This document shows positions 9,035 through 22,276 of a stretch of DNA of 44,262 nt, piece by piece. The notes under the pieces are model-generated. The model worked only from the letters and a program-made list of their open reading frames with translations, had not been told where the DNA came from and did not search any database. Made by a program: the position numbers and the translations under genes. Every line of letters starts with the position of its first letter. Position 1 is the first letter of the stretch. Where the stretch lies: positions 1-44,262 of the forward strand of contig JAAUPA010000009.1 in the NCBI GenBank assembly GCA_012034615.1. Direction: 5' to 3'. The stretch comes from Leptolyngbyaceae cyanobacterium CSU_1_4. Its GTDB lineage: Bacteria; Cyanobacteriota; Cyanobacteriia; Elainellales; Elainellaceae.

Positions 9035-10768
9035 TTATACGACACACTCAGGAACTCTACCGGTTAATCGTTCAACGGTTGTTTGCATTTCTGCGATCGC
9101 CTGCAATTGATAATTACCTGCTTCCTCAAACTGCGTCATAACACTGGCGATCGCTTCTGCCTTTTGTTTCATCTCATGAATGCCTTCCTGCATCGGTTGC
9201 AACATTTCCTGATAAGTATTGACCTTACCCCACAGCTCAGCCACTGCTGTCAATTGGGTGCGACACCGCTGCTCCATTTCTGCAATGTCATGACGCTTTG
9301 CATCTAGATCAATTACCTTCTCATGAGCAGAAGCTTCAAGTTGTTGGACTGTTTCTTGCAACTGCTGAATTTGCGCTTCTAACGCCTGCCTCTCCTGAAT
9401 TTGTTGTTCCTTAAACTCCCCAACTTGAGCCAAAAGGGGAGTTAAATCAATAGAAACTGGCTCCTTTTCTAGCGGCAGCCCCTGGCGCTTTGCCAACACC
9501 ACCTGATGCTGCTTCAAAACACCTTGACGTTCTAATAAATTGCGACGCTGACCTACTAAAGTTTGATTCAACATTTGGTAGCAATCTTGCTCTTCCATTC
9601 GTTCCGACTCTAATCGGAGGCGATCGTATTCACTCGCTTGTTGACTCTGCGTCTTAAGGTCATCAATGGTTTTTTGTTGAAGTGCCAGCTCTTCCTCTTG
9701 GCTATGGACAAACTTAGACATTTTTTCTAAATCCTTTTCCAAGTCCTTAACCACATTCTGCAATTCTTCTAGAGGCATATCCCTTAAAGCCTCGTTTCCG
9801 GGTTCAGAAACACCCATCAGTTGGGCAATCTGTTGATGCAAAGTTTCATACTGCGCTAATTTAAGAGCCAAAATTTGAGCGCTCTCTTGCTTCCAGGTCA
9901 GCGATTCTTGCTTAGTTTGCAGTTCTATCCGAATTGCCTCCACAGCCGCCTGAGCATGATGCCATGCTTGCCATGCTTCTTGAACCGCTTGCAGTTGCTG
10001 CTCCCCTTCAAGCTGCAACTGCTGAGCAGAAGATCGATGCTGTTCTAAATTCTGCCAACGACTGTCTAAAACAGTTTGCTGTTGAGCAATGACTTCAAAG
10101 GTAAGGTTCAATTGCTGTTGAATAGACTCAACCGGAATGACTGCTCCCGAAAGACGGCACAAAAGATCTTGAAGGTAATGAGTTTGCTCTTCATCTAGTC
10201 CTGGAGACTGCTGAAGTTCAGACTGGCGCTCCTCTAAACGATTGGTCTCGCCTTGAAGTTGTGCCCAAGCGCCTTCCAGCTCTTGAGACTTCCGCTCAAA
10301 TTCTCCGCGTAACTGAGCAATTTCTGCTTGCGCAGCGGCAATTTCCTGTCCCTTTTGTTCAAGTAGCGCAAATTCTTCTTCCATCTGCTGAAGTTCTTCT
10401 TGTCGGGTTTCCATTTCCATTTCCCGACGGTTCAACTCTTGGCTTTGGTAAGTTAAAGATTGCTTCCACTGCTCAATTTCTTCTTCCTGAGTTTTTGCCT
10501 TATCCTGCAACCGAGAGAAATTTTGCAGAATGCTCACCAATTGCCGACCGGCTTCATTGTGTCGCTGTATCTGCTTACTCGAAGTTAGTTCTATCATCAC
10601 CAATACCCCAGCGGCATAGGTGACATCATCAGGTGCAGAAACAACTTCCTCGTTAGGGACAGCAATCCATTGATGATCAGATTTCTGGCTAGCCAATAGC
10701 TTGAATTCAGCCTTGCCATTGCCAAGGACGCTTCTATTCTTCCTGAGTACTTCCGCTAAATACAGCAC
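9035..10768 (-). CDS. hmpF: pilus motility taxis protein HmpF
   Basis: This 577-residue protein has an N-terminal globular part (VLYLAEVLRKNRSVLGNGKAEFKLL, then ELTSSKQIQRHNEAGRQLVSIL) followed by about 400 residues of Gln/Glu-rich coiled coil from roughly residue 85. It matches HmpF, a cyanobacterial coiled-coil protein needed for type IV pilus-driven gliding and polar accumulation of pili in Nostoc hormogonia. The start is GTG, preceded by GGAAGAGGATTGTCAGC. It is divergent from hmpA across a 372-base promoter region. That is the same gene order as I recall from Nostoc punctiforme, where hmpF is the reverse-strand neighbour of hmpA-E. There is no membrane segment. Confidence 0.9.
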   Translation of the reverse strand: MLYLAEVLRKNRSVLGNGKAEFKLLASQKSDHQWIAVPNEEVVSAPDDVTYAAGVLVMIELTSSKQIQRHNEAGRQLVSILQNFSRLQDKAKTQEEEIEQWKQSLTYQSQELNRREMEMETRQEELQQMEEEFALLEQKGQEIAAAQAEIAQLRGEFERKSQELEGAWAQLQGETNRLEERQSELQQSPGLDEEQTHYLQDLLCRLSGAVIPVESIQQQLNLTFEVIAQQQTVLDSRWQNLEQHRSSAQQLQLEGEQQLQAVQEAWQAWHHAQAAVEAIRIELQTKQESLTWKQESAQILALKLAQYETLHQQIAQLMGVSEPGNEALRDMPLEELQNVVKDLEKDLEKMSKFVHSQEEELALQQKTIDDLKTQSQQASEYDRLRLESERMEEQDCYQMLNQTLVGQRRNLLERQGVLKQHQVVLAKRQGLPLEKEPVSIDLTPLLAQVGEFKEQQIQERQALEAQIQQLQETVQQLEASAHEKVIDLDAKRHDIAEMEQRCRTQLTAVAELWGKVNTYQEMLQPMQEGIHEMKQKAEAIASVMTQFEEAGNYQLQAIAEMQTTVERLTGRVPECVV

Positions 10769-12487: not shown

Positions 12488-12541
12488 ATGAAGCGAAGCA
12501 GGTTTTTCCCGTCAACCTTGAGGGTAGGTCAAACGTTATGA
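12488..12541 (+). CDS. possible 17-codon leader peptide coupled to hmpB
   Basis: ATG at 12488 follows GGTGAGGAGAATC, a better binding site than most genes here have. It encodes 17 residues (MKRSRFFPSTLRVGQTL). Its TGA stop overlaps the hmpB ATG in the ATGA form (12538-12541), the classical geometry for translational coupling. The peptide is basic with no recognised family. It may be a real leader ORF, or the binding site may be used indirectly. Confidence 0.4.
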   Translation: MKRSRFFPSTLRVGQTL

Positions 12542-12903
12542 CTACAGTTTTAGTGGTCGAAGACAGTGTTACACAGCGGGAAATGATTACCGATCTGCTG
12601 AGGGGAAGCGGTTTAACTGTTACCATCGCCGGAGATGGGGAAGAGGCACTAGAAAAAATCCTGGGCAACCGCCCAGACTTAGTTGTTTTAGATATTGTCA
12701 TGCCCAAAATGAACGGTTATGAAGTGTGTCGGCGATTGAAAGCCGATCCCAAAACCCAAAGCGTTCCGGTGGTGATGTGCTCCTCTAAGGGCGAAGAGTT
12801 CGATCGGTATTGGGGCATGAAGCAAGGCGCAGATGCTTACATTGCCAAACCTTTCCAACCAACCGAACTGGTAGGCACAGTCAAGCAACTCTTACGCGGG
12901 TAA
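12538..12903 (+). CDS. hmpB: CheY-like response regulator HmpB
   Basis: This 121-residue single-domain receiver has the acidic pocket Glu8-Asp9 (VVEDS), phospho-acceptor Asp52 (VVLDIVMPKMNGYE), Ser82/Ser83 in the conserved Thr/Ser place, and Lys104 in YIAKPF. It is the PilH/PixH-type regulator, which carries phosphate from the CheA HmpE and probably modulates or drains the signal to the pilus. CSSKGEEFDRYWG after strand 4 is typical of the PilH group. The start ATG is preceded by AGGGTAGG and overlaps the stop of a short upstream ORF. Spacing to hmpA is about 120 bases and to hmpC about 195, larger than usual for one operon. Confidence 0.93.
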   Translation: MTTVLVVEDSVTQREMITDLLRGSGLTVTIAGDGEEALEKILGNRPDLVVLDIVMPKMNGYEVCRRLKADPKTQSVPVVMCSSKGEEFDRYWGMKQGADAYIAKPFQPTELVGTVKQLLRG

Positions 12904-13661: not shown

Positions 13662-16412
13662 ATGGCATCAAGTACTGGGTACGCACAGGAATATCAACAG
13701 GCGGAACGAGCCTACATGTTAGGCAGCTATGATGAAGCCGCCTCAATAATTGATCGGCTTGCAGAAAGTTATCCCGGCGATCCAAACGTCTGCCTGCTGC
13801 GAGGTCACATCTACTGCTATGGGCTACAGCAATACGATGTTGCCCGAGAGCAATATCAATCGGTTTTAGGCTTAACGGCAGATGTCGAATACGTTAACTA
13901 TGCCAATAATGGCTTAGCCTACGCTGACCAATACGGAGCAGAGAACCCTCTAGGCACAGCACCCGGGGAGATGGATGATGCGTTCGCAGATATTGATGCC
14001 GATTTCGTCAGTACTACCGACCCCCATAACTCTGATTCCTACCGTGTTAACCGCAGCAACGGAACAAACGCATTGCCTCAAGAATTAGAAGATTTTGATT
14101 TCGCAGACTTAAATGTTGTCCAAGCAGATGGGATGGACTGGAACCCGCAGTCTACCGATCCTCTAGACGCGCCAGATCCTTCCCCTTTTGCCAATCCCTT
14201 TGCCACTTCTGAGCCCTCTCGTGAAGCTGGGTTGCCTCCTCTTGATGAACCTTTCACGCTGAGCCAGTCTGCCGAGGAAGACCCTTTTCCCTTCAATGGT
14301 CAGTCCAATTCGCCCGCTACTTACACTGCTTTCAATAGTGACTCGGCATTAGACGACTTTACCCATGATTCTGTGACATCTGTGGAGGAATTTGGGGCTC
14401 AGTCACCTTTAGATCCTTTAGAGGATGCCACTCTATTTATGGGTCTAGATGATTCTGACCTGGATGGGGCATCGGAACCAGCAGCGAATACTTTTGGAGG
14501 GACTGACGGCATGTCTAACGGCATGTCCCACCCCAATCTTTATAATCAGGACGATCGCACCTTCATCTCCGAAAATTCTGGGTACGGACTAGATGACTTA
14601 GATGACGATTTTCCCTCACGCGGAGAGCCTTCTTTTGCTCAGAGCGCTCCTATTACCGGAGCTAGCACCGCTGACTTTTTAGATGAGTTTGATGAGTTTG
14701 ATGACCTGGGCAGCTTGCCAGAGTTTGATCTCTCAGACAACTCTGTGGATCTGATTAGCCCCACCGACTCCTCAGAATTCGGCACCTCTCAGGGTGCATC
14801 TGGAGCATCCAGTAATTCTGGATTTGGCGGCTCAGGGTTTGGATTTAGTGAAAACGTTGATCATTCCACGATTCAGGAAGACGAAATCTTTCCGCTTTCG
14901 AGTCATTCTGAGCAGATGCCTAATTTTACCCAGGCAAATAGTCGTAGCCTTGAACCAGAAGTCAGTGTAGAGCAAGGCTGGATTGCACCGCTAGAAAATT
15001 CTTCTCTGTCTTCAAAGAAATGGATTGTGGGTCTGGCAACGGGCGTTGTCTCTGCGATCGTGGTAGCAGGGGTGAGCTATGGGTTTTCGAGTGCAATTCC
15101 CAAAGATAAAAAAGAGGTTGTTCAGCCCTACTTAACGATGGCAAGCCTAGGGATGACCGGAGCCGCTCTCGTGGTAGGGGGCGGTGTGGCGGGTGTGCTC
15201 AGCGGCATGACTACCAAGCAAGTGAAGCGAACAGCAGCAGATTTGCAGGCGCAGTTTGAAGCCGTGTCTCAGGGCAATCTGAGTGCCCGAGCAACGGTTT
15301 ACTCAGAAGACGAATTTGGGTTACTTTCGGTCAGATTTAACCAGATGGCGAAAACCATCTTGACCACAACCGGCGAAACCCAACGGAAGGCAGAGGAGCA
15401 AGAGCAAGCGAAGGAAGATCTGCAACGTCAAGTTATTCGGCTGCTGGACGATGTGGAAGGAGCGGCAAGGGGCGATTTGACGGTGCAGGCAGAGGTGACG
15501 GCGGATGTGTTAGGAGCCGTTGCGGATTCGTTCAACCTCACGATTCAAAACCTCCGGGAAATTGTTCAACAGGTGAAGATGGCGGCACGTCAGGTGACCA
15601 AAGGTTCGACAGAAAACGAAATCTTTGCCCGATCGCTCTCTTCCGATGCGCTCCGACAAGCGGAAGAACTGGCAGTGACCTTGAATTCTGTCCAAGTCAT
15701 GACCGACTCAATTCAGCGAGTCGCCGAAAGCGCCCGTGAAGCTGAGGAAGTGGCACGGTCTGCCTCAAGCACTGCATTGAAGGGCGGCGAGGCAGTGGAG
15801 CGAACCGTAGCAGGAATTTTACAAATTCGGGAAACGGTGGCGGAAACCACTCGGAAGGTCAAACGTCTGGCTGAATCGTCTCAAGAGATTTCTAAAATTG
15901 TGGCGTTGATTTCGCAGATTGCGTCCCGAACTAATCTCCTGGCACTGAATGCGAGTATTGAGGCGGCAAGAGCGGGTGAAGCCGGACGCGGGTTTGCCAT
16001 TGTTGCAGACGAGGTGCGTCAGCTTGCCGATCGCGCTGCCAAAGCCTCGAAGGAAATTGAGCAAATTGTGTTGCAAATTCAGGGTGAAACTGGGTCGGTG
16101 ATGACGGCGATGGAAGAGGGAACGCAGCAGGTGATTGAGGGCACCCGGCTGGCAGAACAAGCCAAGCGATCGCTTGAAGACATTATCCAAGTTTCTAATC
16201 GAATTGATGTGTTGGTGCGATCGATTACCTCCGACACGGTGGAGCAAACCGAAACCTCACGGGCGGTGGCACAGGTCATGCAATCTGTAGAGCTGACAGC
16301 GCAAGAAACCTCGCAAGAGGCACAACGAGTGTCTGGCTCTCTACAAAACCTGGTGGGAGTGGCGCGGGGTCTGCTCTCGTCGGTGGAACGGTTCCGAGTT
16401 GAGAAAGTTTAG
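13662..16412 (+). CDS. hmpD: methyl-accepting chemotaxis protein HmpD
   Basis: This 916-residue chemoreceptor is of the PilJ/PixJ/HmpD group. Residues 1-95 look like a TPR-type helical repeat ([21 protein letters not shown]). Residues 100-450 are a long acidic, Ser/Asp/Phe-rich linker with no domain. Two hydrophobic segments follow near 453-475 ([20 protein letters not shown]) and 490-513. Next come two HAMP-like units near 520-570 and 587-635, then the coiled-coil signalling domain, whose tip is around 755-790 ([20 protein letters not shown]). The sensory part is cytoplasmic or disordered rather than a periplasmic domain, and no GAF/bilin motif is seen. The start follows AGGAGAAGGTAA. The ligand is unknown. 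Confidence 0.92.
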
Positions 16413-16489: not shown

Positions 16490-19400
16490 ATGCTGTCGGA
16501 ACAACAACAGCGGATTATGGGCTACTTCATTGAGGAGGCAAAAGACCACCTCAATACCATTGAGCAGGGATTACTGAATCTGCAAGGGACGATTGAAGAC
16601 CCCGAAATGGTGAATGAGGTTTTTCGAGCCGCCCACTCAGTTAAAGGCGGAGCCGCAATGCTCGGTCTGACTAGTATTCAGCAAGCCGCTCACCGTTTGG
16701 AGGATTACTTCAAGATTCTCAAAGAATGTCCTATAGAAATTGACCAAGCCTTAGAAACCCTTTTTCTCAAAATTTTTGATGCGCTGCAAGCTTTGCTAGA
16801 ACAGTTGCAGGGTCCCTTCGGGCTAACCAACGACAAATCGGCAGAAGTCATGGCAGGGGTAGAGCCTGTTTTTCAAGAATTGAATCGCCGTTTCAGTGGC
16901 TTAATGGGTCAGGTGAACAGTGCGCTTCTTGAAGATGTAGATTTAAGCATCCTTTCGGCAGTACAGCCTGACCCGGCTCCCGTCGGCGTACCCGCAGCAG
17001 AAGAAAGTGCGCTCCAGCTCATTTTTCAAAGCGAAGTCCCGGTTCGGCTCCGAGAAATGCTTCAGTTGTTCAAACAAAAAGAAACAGCCGACAGCCGTCA
17101 ACAGCTTCAAGCCCTTTGTTCGGTGTTGGGGCAATATGGGGATCCACTCGATTTATTGGCTTGGTGCAGGTTGCTGGATGATGTGCGGAGAGCGATCGCC
17201 AACCCCGAAAACAGCTACCGTGCCCTGGCTCCCATCATCATTAAGGAAGTCAAGCAAGCTCAGGAATTAGTATTATCTAGACGCTCTAACGACATTTTGG
17301 CGAGCACCAGTTTAATGGCGCTTCTGCCGCTACAAGATGAATCCAATATTTATAATCTACCTACCGATTTAGCCACCGATTTAGCCACCGAGCTAGCCAG
17401 TGATCTGGGTTCTGACTTTACAGATCTGTTAGGCTCGATGGAATTGAGCAGCAGTGGTTTTGGTGAACGTGAAGATGATTTGTCTCTGGGTGAACTGGAT
17501 AGCTTTGTCGTTCCAGTCAATGAGTCTTTAAGAATGGACGGGGCGATCGCTCCTTCCGACCTCGTCGCAAATGACAACTGGTTTAATGATGCCCTGATTG
17601 AAGAATCAGAAATGGAGGCGATCGCACCAGACGACTCCCTATTTGAGTCGGAATTTAGCTTGAATTTCAATGAAGCCAACTTTGAAATTTCTGCCCCTCT
17701 CGAGTTGTCCTTCGACGAACAGCCCTCTTCTACAATCAATTCCTCAATAGCCAATTCTTCAAATTCTTCAATAGACAGCCGAACCGGACCCGAAGTAGGA
17801 ATTGCAGAACTCAACAGTTTAGCTGACCTATTTGAAGGGGAAATGCCGAACCTAGACTTAAGCTGGCAATCGGAAGAACCTCTCAATGACAACCATGAGA
17901 CGACAGGCTTCATTGAGTCAAGGAGCCAGAATCCTAACCATGAGTTTTCTGATTTATTACTCGATGGGCTGGACGACCTCGACCCGTCCCATGATTTTGT
18001 TTTAGACGATCTGGTAGAAGAAGACTTGTCAGAATTGCTCGACAGCACTTCTCGCCCCCAACAGTCAGGCTCTTTCACCGCCTCCGTTAATCTTCCATCG
18101 CCAAAGAACCTAACAGTCTCAGAAGATCTCTCAGGCTCAGAAGATCTCTCAGAAGACTTCTTGGAATCGACACTGTCACCCGATGACGCATTTGGTGTGG
18201 ACTGGCTCAACAGCAGCTCCCTATCTCCTGAGATATTATCTGAAACGTCGTCTGAACTATCCTCCAATGAACCGAGGTCCGACAGAGGTTTCATTGATGC
18301 GGTTGACCCAGAAACGGCTGATGAACCCTTTGACCTAAATTTAAGCTTCGATTTGAATTCGAGGAATGATGGGGCGATCGCAACATCTGATGATCATCCG
18401 TTTGATTTAGCTGAAGTTGATCCATCTAACAGAGCCGAGCAACCGGCGTGGCTCACCTCTGCCGACCCGTTTGCATTGAGTATTGCTGATCAAGCTGCCG
18501 AGTCGAGCGAGCCTAATGTTCTAGGTTCTAATGATCTAGATCTAGGTTCTAATGATAATGATTCACCTTTCAGCTTTTTTGAAGCAGACTGTTTTGAACA
18601 GTCTATTGAAGTTGAACCTCTAGAGACCTCAGCATTTAGTCTGGTGGCTGAAGAAGTTGATACAACGTTCAATCTTTTGACCCCCAAAGAAATTTCAAAT
18701 CTTGCTAATCCTTCTGAGGATATCTCCGAGCTGTTGGGAGAGCAATCAAGTACTACAGATGGCTCTGAACTGTTTTTTGAGATGGAATCGTCTGGGGAAG
18801 AGCTAGAGGTTGTGAGCGCATCATTCTTTGAGGAAAACTTAGAAGAAATGAGCTTATTGGAGACTGCTGCTAAAGCCGATCAAGCCACCGAGGAGTTATT
18901 GCCAGAACTCAAACTAGAACCCAATCTAGAACTCAATTTGCCAGCCGAATTGCCAGCAGAGGGAAGTGGCTTGACGTTCTTTTCAGCAGACCAGCCAGCC
19001 ACACAAGCTGAGGATGAGAGAGCAACTTTTGAATTCAATCATCTTTGGAATCATCATCCCGAACCTGAGCTAGCCGTATCAAAGTTGGATGGAATTGAAG
19101 AGGAGAACGTTCTAGAAAACTCACCTAATTTGTTGAACTTTGAATTACAACCTCAAACCAACGAAGTTGATGTCTCAAACTTGACCGACAACAGCGTAGA
19201 ATGCTCTTCTGAACTCCACTTCCCCAGTCCTGAGAAGAACACTGAACCAAACTTTCCTCACTTAACTCATCATCTTGAATCGAACTTAGAGCTAATGGCT
19301 CAAGATACAGAACTCGCTCATTTGTGGGCAGAAGATTCGGCTGAAGGAGAAACCACAGAACTGGCTCATTTGTGGGTAGAAGATTTGGCTGAAGGAGAGA

Positions 19401-22276
19401 CAGACCTTGAAATTCTATCTGACCCTCCTCTTCCATCTCTAGAGGGTGATGGGAATGAATGGTTTATAACTGAATCTAATTTACTTCAGGGTGGAGAATC
19501 GGCCGATGTCGCGGATCTTGACCTCTTTGCAGGCGATCGCGCCCCTGAAGTTTCAGGTTCTCTGGAACCATTCGAGCCTTCTGAAGCAGAGGAATTTATC
19601 GCTCTAAGCCCTATTTATGCAGCAGATCTAACCAAGGCTGAAGAAATTGAGGGATTCCCCGATAGCATTTCGGGCTTTATGCAGGCTCAAGATTTAGAAG
19701 GCTCGGAGACAGAGGACTTTACAGGATTTGCGTTTGAACTAGGCAGTGCTGAAGGCTTTGGGGAAGGAGCGATCGCCCCTCCCATTCCTCTGAAGCCCGA
19801 GGCTTCAGCCCACGATGACTTTTCTGCCCTAGATTTATTGATGGAAACCGGAACAGAGTCAGTCTCAGGATCCTACCTTTCCCTCGACTTTGGAGAAAGC
19901 TTCGCTCTGGAGCCGACAGAGACTATGGAAGCCATGGAGAGCCTCTCTTCATCGGGTGTCTCTCTTAATTCACCCAATCCGTCCCCTTCCCCCGATCAAC
20001 TGGATGACTTCTCCGGCTTAGAAGCCCTGATCGGGGAACCGACTCAAACTTCGGCTGAAGCCACTCAGACCTTGTTTGAGCCAGAACAGGATAACTTTGA
20101 TGACTTAGAACTGTTACTGGTTGATCCTGCCCTCCCCCCTAGCCCTTCTGTTGCTGAGATAACTCTAAACAGTTCGTTCAAGAAGGATGAATTTAGTGAC
20201 CTTGAAGATTTGCTGAAAGACGCAGATCAGACCTTGGGTGGAGGCTCAGCCAGCCGTAAAGCCGCCAGTGTTCCTAACCGTCGATCGAATCGCCGGGGCG
20301 TTCTAAGCGATCAGACCATGCGAGTTTCGGTTAAGCATTTAGACAATCTCAACAACCTGGTTGGCGAGATGGTGGTCAACCGGAATAGTTTAGAACAAGC
20401 GCAGGAGCGGTTACGCCAGTTTCTCGACAATTTGCTTTATCAAGTGCAGCAATTGAGCGATGTGGGGCAGAGAATGCGGGACTTGTATGAGCGATCGCTC
20501 CTCGAAAGTTCCTTGCTCTCCACTCGTCGCAGCTATCACCTTAAGCCTCAAAAAGACAGCGGATTTGGCGCAGGACAAAGCAATTCCTCAAGCCACGCCA
20601 CTGGAGAAAGCTTTGATGCATTAGAAATGGATCGCTTTACTGGGTTCCATACCCTTTCTCAAGAAATGATTGAGCTAATTGTTCGAGTGCGAGAATCTGC
20701 TTCTGACATTGACTTTGTGGTGGAAGAAAGTGATCAAGTCACTCGAAACTTCCGGCAAATTACAACTCAGCTTCAAGAAGGTTTGACCCGCGCCCGCATG
20801 GTTCCTTTTGCTCAAACGGCTGACCGTTTGCCCAGAGGCGTGAGAGACAATGCTTTGAAGTATGGCAAGCAAGCAGAACTGCTGGTTGAAGGTCGGGATA
20901 CTCTAATTGACAAGATGATTATTGAGCATCTCTACGACCCCATGACGCACTTGGTTAACAATGCGGTGGCACACGGGATAGAAACGGCAGCAGAAAGGAT
21001 TGCGGCGGGGAAACCGCCCATAGGCAAGATTGTGCTGCGGACTTTCCACCAAGGAAACCAGACTATTATCTCGGTCAGTGATGACGGCGCGGGCATTGAC
21101 CAAGAGCGGGTGAAATCAAAGGCGATCGCCAAAGGGCTGATTACTGCGGCAGAAGCCAAACAGATGTCCCGCATGGACACCTACGATTTACTGTTTCACC
21201 ACGGATTCAGTACTGCCGACCAAATTGACGATCTTAAAGGTCGGGGTGTGGGTCTAGATGTGGTTCGCAGCAACCTCAACGAAATTCGGGGAGTCATTAG
21301 CATCGACTCGACTGTGGGCAAAGGTACAACCTTTACAATCCGGCTACCTCTCACCTTAAGCATCTCTAAAGCCCTCTGCTGCATCAGCAATCGTGCCCGC
21401 ATTGCCTTCCCCATGGATGGCGTAGAAGATATGCTTGATATTCCTAAAGAAAGGGTGCAGATCGATGCCCAAGGTCGCCCCTGCATTTATTGGCGCGATG
21501 CTTTGCTGCCCTTCCAGCCCTTAACGGATTTATTGAAGCATGGGCGGATATTGGGTCGAGGCAGTGTCTATGGAGGCAACCAGGAGGACGACATTATTTC
21601 AGTCGTTGTCTTGCGCAGCACGGGAACTAATTTGGCGCTTCAGGTCGATCAAGTGCTAGGCGAACAAGAGATTGTGATTAAGCAACTAGAAGGCCCTGTA
21701 CCTAAGCCGATTGGCATTGCAGGGGCAACGGTGATGGGAGATGGGCGGATTATGCCGATCGCTGATGTTTTAGAGTTGATTGATCTGGCAGAAGGGCGAG
21801 TTCGTCGAGATGCAGGCAGCTCGCTTTGGGAAATGGAAGAACAGCTTCCGCCAGAAGCCTTTACCGCAAAAACCGAACCCACAGTGCTCATTGTGGATGA
21901 CTCTATTACGGTTCGAGAACTACTATCGATGACTTTCAACAAAGTTGGTTATCGGGTGGAGCAAGCCCGCGACGGGCAAGAGGCTTGGGAAAAGCTTCGC
22001 TCTGGGTTACCGTGTGACTTAGTATTCTGTGACATTGAGATGCCACGAATGGACGGATTAGAACTGCTTTCCCGTCTTCAAAAAGACCCCAGTCTCAGCC
22101 ACTTACCGATCGCCATGCTGACTTCTAGAGGAGCCGATCGCCATCGTCAAATGGCAGTGCAACTGGGCGCGAAGGGATATTTTACTAAGCCCTACTTAGA
22201 AGAAGCGTTGCTAGATGCCGCTCAGCGGATGTTAAAAGGAGAAGTTTTGGTCACAAAAAGCGCCAATCGCCCTTGA
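16490..22276 (+). CDS. hmpE: giant hybrid CheA histidine kinase HmpE
   Basis: This 1928-residue CheA/response-regulator hybrid is the kinase of the Hmp array. An HPt domain at the N-terminus carries phospho-His49 in FRAAHSVKGGAAM. A second helical domain spans about 165-270. Then comes an acidic Ser/Asp/Glu/Leu-rich linker from about 280 to 1260 with short tandem repeats. The dimerisation domain begins near 1275 (MRVSVKHLDNLNNLVGEM) and the ATPase near 1480 (HLVNNAVAHGIE, SDDGAGID). A CheW-like regulatory domain lies at about 1640-1770, and the C-terminal receiver has Asp1848 (VFCDIEMPRMDG). The start follows CAGAGGAACACTGCT. The linker accounts for half the protein. It makes the protein far longer than a standard CheA of 650-1000 residues. 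Confidence 0.93.
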   Translation: MLSEQQQRIMGYFIEEAKDHLNTIEQGLLNLQGTIEDPEMVNEVFRAAHSVKGGAAMLGLTSIQQAAHRLEDYFKILKECPIEIDQALETLFLKIFDALQALLEQLQGPFGLTNDKSAEVMAGVEPVFQELNRRFSGLMGQVNSALLEDVDLSILSAVQPDPAPVGVPAAEESALQLIFQSEVPVRLREMLQLFKQKETADSRQQLQALCSVLGQYGDPLDLLAWCRLLDDVRRAIANPENSYRALAPIIIKEVKQAQELVLSRRSNDILASTSLMALLPLQDESNIYNLPTDLATDLATELASDLGSDFTDLLGSMELSSSGFGEREDDLSLGELDSFVVPVNESLRMDGAIAPSDLVANDNWFNDALIEESEMEAIAPDDSLFESEFSLNFNEANFEISAPLELSFDEQPSSTINSSIANSSNSSIDSRTGPEVGIAELNSLADLFEGEMPNLDLSWQSEEPLNDNHETTGFIESRSQNPNHEFSDLLLDGLDDLDPSHDFVLDDLVEEDLSELLDSTSRPQQSGSFTASVNLPSPKNLTVSEDLSGSEDLSEDFLESTLSPDDAFGVDWLNSSSLSPEILSETSSELSSNEPRSDRGFIDAVDPETADEPFDLNLSFDLNSRNDGAIATSDDHPFDLAEVDPSNRAEQPAWLTSADPFALSIADQAAESSEPNVLGSNDLDLGSNDNDSPFSFFEADCFEQSIEVEPLETSAFSLVAEEVDTTFNLLTPKEISNLANPSEDISELLGEQSSTTDGSELFFEMESSGEELEVVSASFFEENLEEMSLLETAAKADQATEELLPELKLEPNLELNLPAELPAEGSGLTFFSADQPATQAEDERATFEFNHLWNHHPEPELAVSKLDGIEEENVLENSPNLLNFELQPQTNEVDVSNLTDNSVECSSELHFPSPEKNTEPNFPHLTHHLESNLELMAQDTELAHLWAEDSAEGETTELAHLWVEDLAEGETDLEILSDPPLPSLEGDGNEWFITESNLLQGGESADVADLDLFAGDRAPEVSGSLEPFEPSEAEEFIALSPIYAADLTKAEEIEGFPDSISGFMQAQDLEGSETEDFTGFAFELGSAEGFGEGAIAPPIPLKPEASAHDDFSALDLLMETGTESVSGSYLSLDFGESFALEPTETMEAMESLSSSGVSLNSPNPSPSPDQLDDFSGLEALIGEPTQTSAEATQTLFEPEQDNFDDLELLLVDPALPPSPSVAEITLNSSFKKDEFSDLEDLLKDADQTLGGGSASRKAASVPNRRSNRRGVLSDQTMRVSVKHLDNLNNLVGEMVVNRNSLEQAQERLRQFLDNLLYQVQQLSDVGQRMRDLYERSLLESSLLSTRRSYHLKPQKDSGFGAGQSNSSSHATGESFDALEMDRFTGFHTLSQEMIELIVRVRESASDIDFVVEESDQVTRNFRQITTQLQEGLTRARMVPFAQTADRLPRGVRDNALKYGKQAELLVEGRDTLIDKMIIEHLYDPMTHLVNNAVAHGIETAAERIAAGKPPIGKIVLRTFHQGNQTIISVSDDGAGIDQERVKSKAIAKGLITAAEAKQMSRMDTYDLLFHHGFSTADQIDDLKGRGVGLDVVRSNLNEIRGVISIDSTVGKGTTFTIRLPLTLSISKALCCISNRARIAFPMDGVEDMLDIPKERVQIDAQGRPCIYWRDALLPFQPLTDLLKHGRILGRGSVYGGNQEDDIISVVVLRSTGTNLALQVDQVLGEQEIVIKQLEGPVPKPIGIAGATVMGDGRIMPIADVLELIDLAEGRVRRDAGSSLWEMEEQLPPEAFTAKTEPTVLIVDDSITVRELLSMTFNKVGYRVEQARDGQEAWEKLRSGLPCDLVFCDIEMPRMDGLELLSRLQKDPSLSHLPIAMLTSRGADRHRQMAVQLGAKGYFTKPYLEEALLDAAQRMLKGEVLVTKSANRP
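19307..19402. repeat. 48-bp tandem repeat inside the hmpE linker
   Basis: Two in-frame 48-base units (19307-19354 and 19355-19402) encode TELAHLWAEDSAEGET and TELAHLWVEDLAEGET. Smaller in-frame repeats occur near 17360-17400 (LATDLATELASDLG) and near 18530-18560 (GSNDLDLGSNDND). The linker seems to grow by slippage in multiples of three. Confidence 0.85.

Follow-up and report, generated by a model that had tools for sequence, protein, structure and literature searches.

A long acidic tether with conserved motifs in the cyanobacterial chemosensory kinase HmpE: a candidate docking strip for a response regulator

Introduction

Why should half of a chemosensory kinase consist of acidic, low-complexity sequence? 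The question is raised by a 44,262-nucleotide stretch of DNA from Leptolyngbyaceae cyanobacterium CSU_1_4 (contig JAAUPA010000009.1; the whole stretch is hereafter called the window), in which the kinase HmpE carries a very long linker between its phosphotransfer domain and its kinase core. The Hmp (PilG-L) system controls type IV pili and the position of HmpF in Nostoc, and HmpF is the output of Hmp at the cell pole (PMC12288463, PMC9239167). In Synechocystis the corresponding kinase is split into PilL-N and PilL-C (table in PMC7076178). A survey of CheA kinases reports that the P2 domain is missing from more than half of CheA homologues, and also describes bipartite CheAs and very long dimerisation domains in cyanobacterial Tfp kinases (PMC10782961); the word 'disorder' was not found in its main text as available to us.

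A first-pass annotation of the window had suggested that the acidic tethers of HmpE and of its partner HmpD share a physical role, for example in reach, phase-separated clustering or polar localisation, and that the covalent link within the kinase is dispensable. Here, we compare the HmpE tether across cyanobacteria, describe the conserved elements that it contains and tentatively propose that those at its kinase end dock a response regulator.

Results

The Hmp locus and the domains of HmpE

The window holds a cyanobacterial system of the Hmp/PilL (Tfp) type. Its operon encodes a DUF4388 (PATAN) and Response_reg protein, a Response_reg protein, CheW, a HAMP and MCPsignal protein and a CheA with a receiver, and hmpF adjoins it (Table 1). 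The names hmpA to hmpE follow the first-pass annotation and general usage, while the name HmpF rests on its match to a curated model.

Table 1. Features of the Hmp locus and of the HmpE tether, with positions in the window
Feature	Positions	Strand	Basis
hmpF, coiled-coil pilus taxis protein	9035..10768	-	NCBIfam NF038350 taxis_HmpF, 608 bits (cut-off 200)
hmpB, single-domain CheY-like response regulator (PilH type)	12538..12903	+	Pfam Response_reg
Acidic, Phe-rich HmpD linker, aa ~101-450, ~350 aa (hmpD 13662-16412)	13962..15011	+	
Conserved HmpD-linker element, 25 aa	14670..14744	+	HMM A7, this genome E 3.4e-13
hmpE (PilL-type CheA), 1928 aa, single intact ORF	16490..22276	+	ORF and Pfam
Hpt (P1) domain, aa 9-107	16514..16810	+	Pfam PF01627
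Second folded helical domain (D2), aa 169-262	16994..17275	+	pLDDT mostly >95
Acidic low-complexity tether, aa 291-1262, 972 aa	17360..20275	+	Composition, FoldIndex, pLDDT at modelled ends
Distal conserved element TGPEVGIAELNSLADLFEGEMPNLDLSWQSEE, aa 432-463	17783..17878	+	HMM, this genome E 7.4e-20
48-base tandem duplication inside tether	19307..19401	+	93% matches as called; 91% ungapped
Motif copy 1, DDFSALDLLM (F at aa 1111)	19814..19843	+	Core-regex scan
Motif copy 2, DDFSGLEALI (F at aa 1174)	20003..20032	+	Core-regex scan
Motif copy 3, DNFDDLELLL (F at aa 1203)	20090..20119	+	Core-regex scan
Motif copy 4, juxta-P3, DEFSDLEDLL (F at aa 1235)	20186..20215	+	Regex; HMM E 3.2e-10
P3 dimerisation, P4 kinase, P5 CheW-like, C-terminal receiver (aa 1275-1911)	20312..22222	+	Pfam; Foldseek to CheA and CheY structures

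HmpE is a CheA histidine kinase: the Hpt (residues 9-107), dimerisation (H-kinase_dim, 1275-1331), HATPase_c (1485-1622) and CheW-like (1629-1766) domains all exceed the Pfam cut-offs in one protein, which ends in a receiver (Response_reg, 1799-1911). The structural match of its P1 domain is CheA P1 (1i5n; Z 17.4, rmsd 2.1, 127 residues). Between P1 and the tether, the model contains a second, confidently folded domain, D2, predicted to be a four-helix, HPt-like bundle; its best structural matches are HPt proteins at Z ~10, a value within the range common for helical bundles. A Pfam P2 domain was found neither in the whole of HmpE at E 0.01 nor in the linker at E 1. In its N-terminal Hpt domain, the lack of P2, its C-terminal receiver and the control of type IV pili, HmpE is like the Tfp-class CheAs Pseudomonas ChpA and Synechocystis PilL-N/PilL-C. 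It differs from Synechocystis PilL in being fused rather than split. The Tfp-class CheA of P. aeruginosa has multiple Hpt domains (PMC10782961), whereas HmpE combines one Pfam Hpt domain with a single HPt-like bundle and a long, acidic tether in which motifs lie. The first-pass annotation had included neither D2 nor the conserved tether motifs.

A long acidic tether predicted to be disordered

The ORF, the Pfam domains and the composition bear out the earlier description of half of the 1928-residue protein as low-complexity sequence between the phosphotransfer and kinase domains, and the linker, first placed at 17330-20280 with about 980 residues, measures 972. Its composition is D+E 0.23, K+R 0.02, S+T+N+G+P+Q 0.38, L 0.13 and Cys 0.00, its FoldIndex is -0.10, and no Pfam family matched it up to E = 1. 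HmpE was modelled as two single-chain AlphaFold pieces (aa 1-470 and aa 1095-1928), in which the pLDDT of the tether is mostly <50 outside the motif helices; residues 471-1094 were judged by composition only. Intrinsic disorder of the tether is thus well supported as a prediction from composition, FoldIndex and pLDDT, and FoldIndex is below zero in 76 of 78 linkers, the exceptions being L070 (+0.04) and L075 (which rounds to zero). An antisense ORF of 314 aa also lies over the tether (window 17350-18294, minus strand); it is probably a by-product of codon use and no gene.

For comparison, the kinase half was matched in all 40 relatives, strongly in 38; two (G025 and G037) gave weak matches only and were left out of the loci compared. 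In the phylum sample it was found at a strict threshold in 84 of 244 genomes, six of which were already included, and 40 of the 78 others were hand-picked for diversity and intact frames. Length figures exclude 15 partial linkers out of 78. In the other 63 loci D2, the kinase and the linker share a single ORF, with a median linker length of 838 aa (range 187-1744), D+E of 0.18-0.33 (mean 0.27) and K+R of 0.00-0.09 (mean 0.02); for the 58 orthologues with P1 also in that ORF the median is 841.5 aa (range 259-1744). Composition is far steadier than length, the coefficient of variation over the 63 linkers being 0.11 for the D+E fraction and 0.36 for length, and the net charge of the tether is about -0.24 per residue. 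These comparisons support the view that Hmp/PilL kinases carry a long acidic tether as a conserved feature.

Acidity as such does not set HmpE apart: acidic stretches occur in paralogous CheAs and in some unrelated proteins too. Among 20 paralogous CheAs, 19 have P1 and kinase in one ORF (L278, a kinase ORF without P1, was left out), with spacers of 113-735 aa (median 362) and D+E of 0.09-0.24. Similar linkers in unrelated proteins of this genome had been named at the outset as evidence that would count against a special role; this expectation is partly borne out, in a family relative rather than in this genome, where 5 of 251 ORFs in a 400 kb (7%) sample hold a 150-aa stretch with D+E >=0.20 and K+R <=0.04. 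What appears unique to HmpE against these controls is great length together with conserved motifs. The earlier interpretation is thus partly supported: a long acidic chain is conserved over the 63 linkers measured, but composition by itself is no marker of a shared physical role.

The in-frame repeats reported at first pass are present. The 48-base duplication encodes TELAHLWAEDSAEGE/TELAHLWVEDLAEGE, and the remaining tandem repeats called within the linker have periods of 12-18 bases. Neither ELAHLW nor LAHL occurs in the congener G001, so the 48-base repeat is not common to the genus. Comparison of two congeners gives a dN/dS of 0.32 over the tether, rising to 0.48 in its middle, and of 0.01 for the kinase core; 92 residues are unaligned. 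Slippage and tandem duplication might simply have lengthened a dispensable, functionless region, as a duplication unseen in the congener and the unaligned residues would suggest; such neutral expansion is nevertheless very improbable in our judgement, as the acidic composition is maintained across the class and the motifs are conserved. A palindrome, GCGATCGC, considered as shaping the linker, was rejected for lack of enrichment (114 sites in 178,629 nt of linker and 721 in 1,026,685 nt of loci).

A motif array at the kinase end

Position-weight EM over entire linkers reached its highest likelihoods on blocks of P/A/S/T-rich composition. Gapped-triplet enrichment without a preset motif was used instead, and in it F..L...L ranked first (76 linkers; 227 seen, 39.6 expected from local shuffles). 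The consensus of this kinase-side motif, from 388 distinct core-regex instances with flanks, is D-[ED]-F-x-D-L-E-x-L-L, and it usually forms an array of 1-8 copies per linker. In the first set, the core regex finds 192 copies in 78 linkers as against 5.5 after shuffling (maximum 12 in 200 shuffles), the motif being present in 72 linkers and missing from 6; the regex was written after this set had been seen, so these counts are descriptive. Among loci fetched after the motif had been defined, 78 of 80 contain a core copy, as do 68 of the 69 second-set linkers that have at least 60 aa and an end not identical to the first set. After deduplication, the motif lies in the last 200 aa of 141 of 147 linkers, compared with 2% of shuffled ones. 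It is absent from the entire linker in five of the 147, and neither the wider core nor a relaxed form occurs in the last 200 aa of L074 and L075. When the two sets are taken together, 94% of the 429 copies are found in the 200 aa before P3, a region that makes up 24% of the length, and the median spacing of copies is 32 aa.

The copy next to P3 is the best defined. It is modelled as a helix (aa 1236-1249) whose first block has a pLDDT of ~80, with 39-53 by block for the other motif helices, and its dN/dS between the two congeners is 0.07 (20 codons) as against 0.32 for the tether, which marks it as being under purifying selection by codon comparison. An HMM of the last copy gave E <0.01 in 8 of 10 genomes, every such match lying in HmpE, and its best match outside HmpE had E 1.07; in the other two, the best match lies in HmpE at E 0.3 (G041) or there is none (G028). 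The core motif has no copy in 19 paralogous CheA spacers or in 57 HmpD linkers, and a single main motif for HmpD and HmpE is accordingly rejected at the regex level. The presence of conserved motifs in the tether, their position, their repetition and their apparent specificity to HmpE are well supported by these scans.

A purely entropic spacer, selected for length and charge and with the motifs as minor helical blips of acidic Leu-rich sequence, would explain the contrast between variable length and steady acidity, the high dN/dS in mid-tether and the acidic spacers of the paralogues. It is already contradicted, though, by the motif statistics: the counts are many-fold above those of composition-preserving shuffles and are concentrated at one end. 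The purifying selection on the last motif and the conservation of the distal element described below also argue against it, and we consider it improbable.

The distal element and the split kinases

A second element lies ~100 aa C-terminal of D2 and is conserved across ~33 positions, with the consensus GPEVGxAELNSLADLFEGExPDLxxxWQEEE. In the model of aa 1-470 it contains a helix (aa 438-449) with pLDDT of 66-77 by block in surroundings mostly <50. The string LADLF is found in 99 of 126 distal linkers and in none of 19 paralogue spacers. The element scores >25 bits in 115 of 158 linkers, many of the others being truncated, split or divergent, and in 9 of 15 genomes its HMM has a match at E 1.2e-9 or better, always at the hmpE locus; the six genomes without a match comprise five split ones and one fused (G028). 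Scored with the kinase-side motif matrix, the distal element falls at 1.3e-3 of background windows and is not measurably alike.

Fourteen genomes were searched for a P1 half. One of them, G031 (L070), is not counted as split, as it has a probable frameshift, with the distal element in another frame of the same locus; G016 (L052) was also rejected as split, again for a probable frameshift, its HmpD being broken too. In 12 of the 13 split genomes the best P1 match falls within a frame of its own, 290-346 aa in length; in G133 that frame has 644 aa. The ten readable PilL-N tails are non-acidic (D+E 0.02-0.12); four of the 14 PilL-N loci (L219, L225, L229 and L231) gave no useful parse. All 12 split-type kinase halves have at least one motif by a relaxed regex, and ten of them have a spacer of 187-394 aa and a distal-element score <0; in L071 and L106 the spacer is longer, at 1257 and 494 aa, and the distal element is present as a variant. 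From the separate P1 frames and this pattern of spacer and motif it follows that the covalent link is dispensable, as the split PilL had first suggested. Fused kinases tend to be those with the long spacer and the distal element, and the kinase-side motif is retained in fused and split forms alike.

Further observations concern the architecture of these loci. D2 matches occur on both PilL-N and the kinase polypeptide in the split lineages G154, G093 and G158. In G032 (L071, L227), PilL-N has its own frame of 341 aa and D2 is fused to the kinase, while a short ORF with P1 only is found near the kinase gene. Stand-alone PilL-N C-termini (L220-L224, L226, L228, L232) have a similar tail, which reads roughly GLEQLA...PQILL..DP..AA..L..VFN..Q.SQLV.LL. 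In Nostoc carneum NIES-2107, the HmpE locus (L215) is on a record titled plasmid1.

The HmpD linker

HmpD does carry an acidic Phe-rich linker of the ~350 residues first estimated; across 57 HmpD linkers the median length is 395 aa, with extremes of 173 and 784. The HMM of its conserved element is significant in 8 of 12 genomes, in frames of HmpD size, the window match being in HmpD. NPF occurs 72 times in the 57 linkers (6.6 after shuffling) and DPF 68 times (19.8); NPF is somewhat enriched in distal HmpE linkers too (32 as against 10.3). The main conserved elements of the two proteins differ, and with the HmpE motif matrix the best window of the HmpD element lies at 2e-5 of background. A remote common theme is possible on this score, and one partner might therefore hold both proteins.

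Long, low-complexity acidic stretches in two partners, the NPF enrichment common to them and a polar Hmp output, HmpF (PMC12288463), are what one might expect if the tethers drove phase-separated clustering or polar localisation of the array. The difference between the main conserved elements of HmpD and HmpE runs counter to this, as do the short spacers of ten of the 12 split-type kinase halves. Strongly like-charged chains are, moreover, expected to repel copies of themselves; for a chain with such a uniform net charge, self-driven phase separation would not be the obvious interpretation. The phase-separated clustering suggested at first pass is thus unsupported, and we think it distinctly improbable that the acidic tethers cluster or localise the array.

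Likeness to FliM and the candidate partner

FliM and FliY bind CheY-P in its alpha4-alpha5 groove through the signature EIDALL (PMC9126983), and the HmpE motif frequently reads DLEALL, close to it. The 147 linkers, 117,130 aa in all, contain the pattern [DE][LIV][DE]ALL 167 times as against 2.7 after shuffling; it occurs once in 7,193 aa of paralogue spacers and not at all in 99,502 aa of open frames from a genome sample of a relative. It is found in 96 of the 147 linkers, or in 137 if any residue is allowed at the Ala place. When E. coli FliM 1-20 is scored with the motif matrix, the best of its eight windows exceeds 99.98% of background windows (top 2e-4), and the CheZ peptide is unremarkable (~1e-3 of background windows). 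This likeness rests on six residues, and the invariant Phe of the motif is without a FliM counterpart; a profile search of solved structures with the motif gave one chance-level match and did not return FliM.

If the motif holds a regulator as FliM holds CheY, the corresponding face of the regulator might be conserved. In HmpB, alpha4-beta5-alpha5 is more conserved than alpha1 and alpha2 (entropy 0.37 versus 1.05; 0 of 10,000 permutations). We downgraded this as strong support after a control: a paralogous CheY family (19 sequences, with a CheA that has no motif) follows the same trend more weakly, with an entropy ratio of 0.67 against 0.37 for HmpB, and three HmpB subsamples of 16 sequences gave 0.44, 0.10 and 0.70. 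By these alignments, the conservation of the HmpB face is partly generic. The HmpA receiver is also more conserved on its alpha4-beta5-alpha5 face (0.76 versus 1.17, p 0.02). Docking on the receiver of HmpE itself is not favoured, as that receiver has no conservation bias to this face.

Because of the FliM-like core, the missing P2 domain and the conservation of the HmpB face, we propose that the motif array at the kinase end of the disordered tether docks a response regulator, replacing P2. On these comparisons HmpB would be the most likely partner. The proposal is a tentative one, which we regard as plausible rather than probable.

The motifs might dock another partner instead, such as HmpF, the PATAN regulator HmpA, CheW (HmpC), a pilus motor protein or the core of HmpE; the tether would then anchor the array at the pilus base instead of recruiting a substrate. 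The gene for HmpF lies next to the Hmp system, and the protein is its published polar output (PMC12288463, PMC9239167); the HmpD element also scores highly with the motif matrix; and the juxta-P3 helix, the best ordered copy in a model of HmpE alone, is consistent with packing in cis on the kinase core. HmpF is a poor match for an acidic peptide, however, since it is net negative in 10 of 11 blocks of 50 residues, and the motif's staying next to the kinase core in split lineages also counts against this reading. We therefore think another partner somewhat unlikely.

Discussion

On the proposal that the kinase-side array docks a response regulator, the tether would have three parts: a fast-evolving spacer, a distal helix near the phosphotransfer half and an array of helices on the kinase side. 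The amphipathic helices of the array, ~30 residues apart, would dock the regulator as the EIDALL helix of FliM/FliY holds CheY, and HmpE would in this way recruit its own substrate without a P2 domain. The fast-evolving acidic spacer may set the reach, may keep chains apart and would leave P1 free to shuttle between the ATP site and the docked regulator.

Two known systems invite comparison. The N-terminal helix of FliM/FliY and the HmpE motif are both short, acidic amphipathic helices with a [DE][LIV][DE]ALL core, and both sit on a flexible part of a chemosensory partner. The HmpE motif differs in that it lies inside a kinase tether, usually as an array of 1-8 copies, and has an added invariant Phe; its binding of a regulator is proposed. 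The P2 (CheY-binding) domain of CheA has the same place, between P1 and P3, and the same proposed job of bringing the response regulator to the kinase, but it is a folded domain, whereas HmpE has no Pfam P2 match and instead an array of short motifs in disordered sequence. No description of such tether motifs was found in the literature searched, which was mainly open-access and of partial coverage; they are therefore likely to be new in print.

The 'long acidic linker' is now resolved into testable parts, namely spacer length, the distal element and the kinase-side array, and the conserved motifs shift the picture from a passive tether to what may be a docking strip as well as a spacer. More speculatively, and with rather low confidence, Hmp kinases might have swapped a folded P2 domain for a disordered docking strip, in which a convergent FliM-like array would hold several molecules of the pilus response regulator close to the kinase and a second, conserved helix would lie at the phosphotransfer end, such that one chain could store, phosphorylate and release its own substrate. 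How CheAs that lack P2 bring a response regulator to the kinase is a natural question, and it is this question that the HmpE motifs may address.
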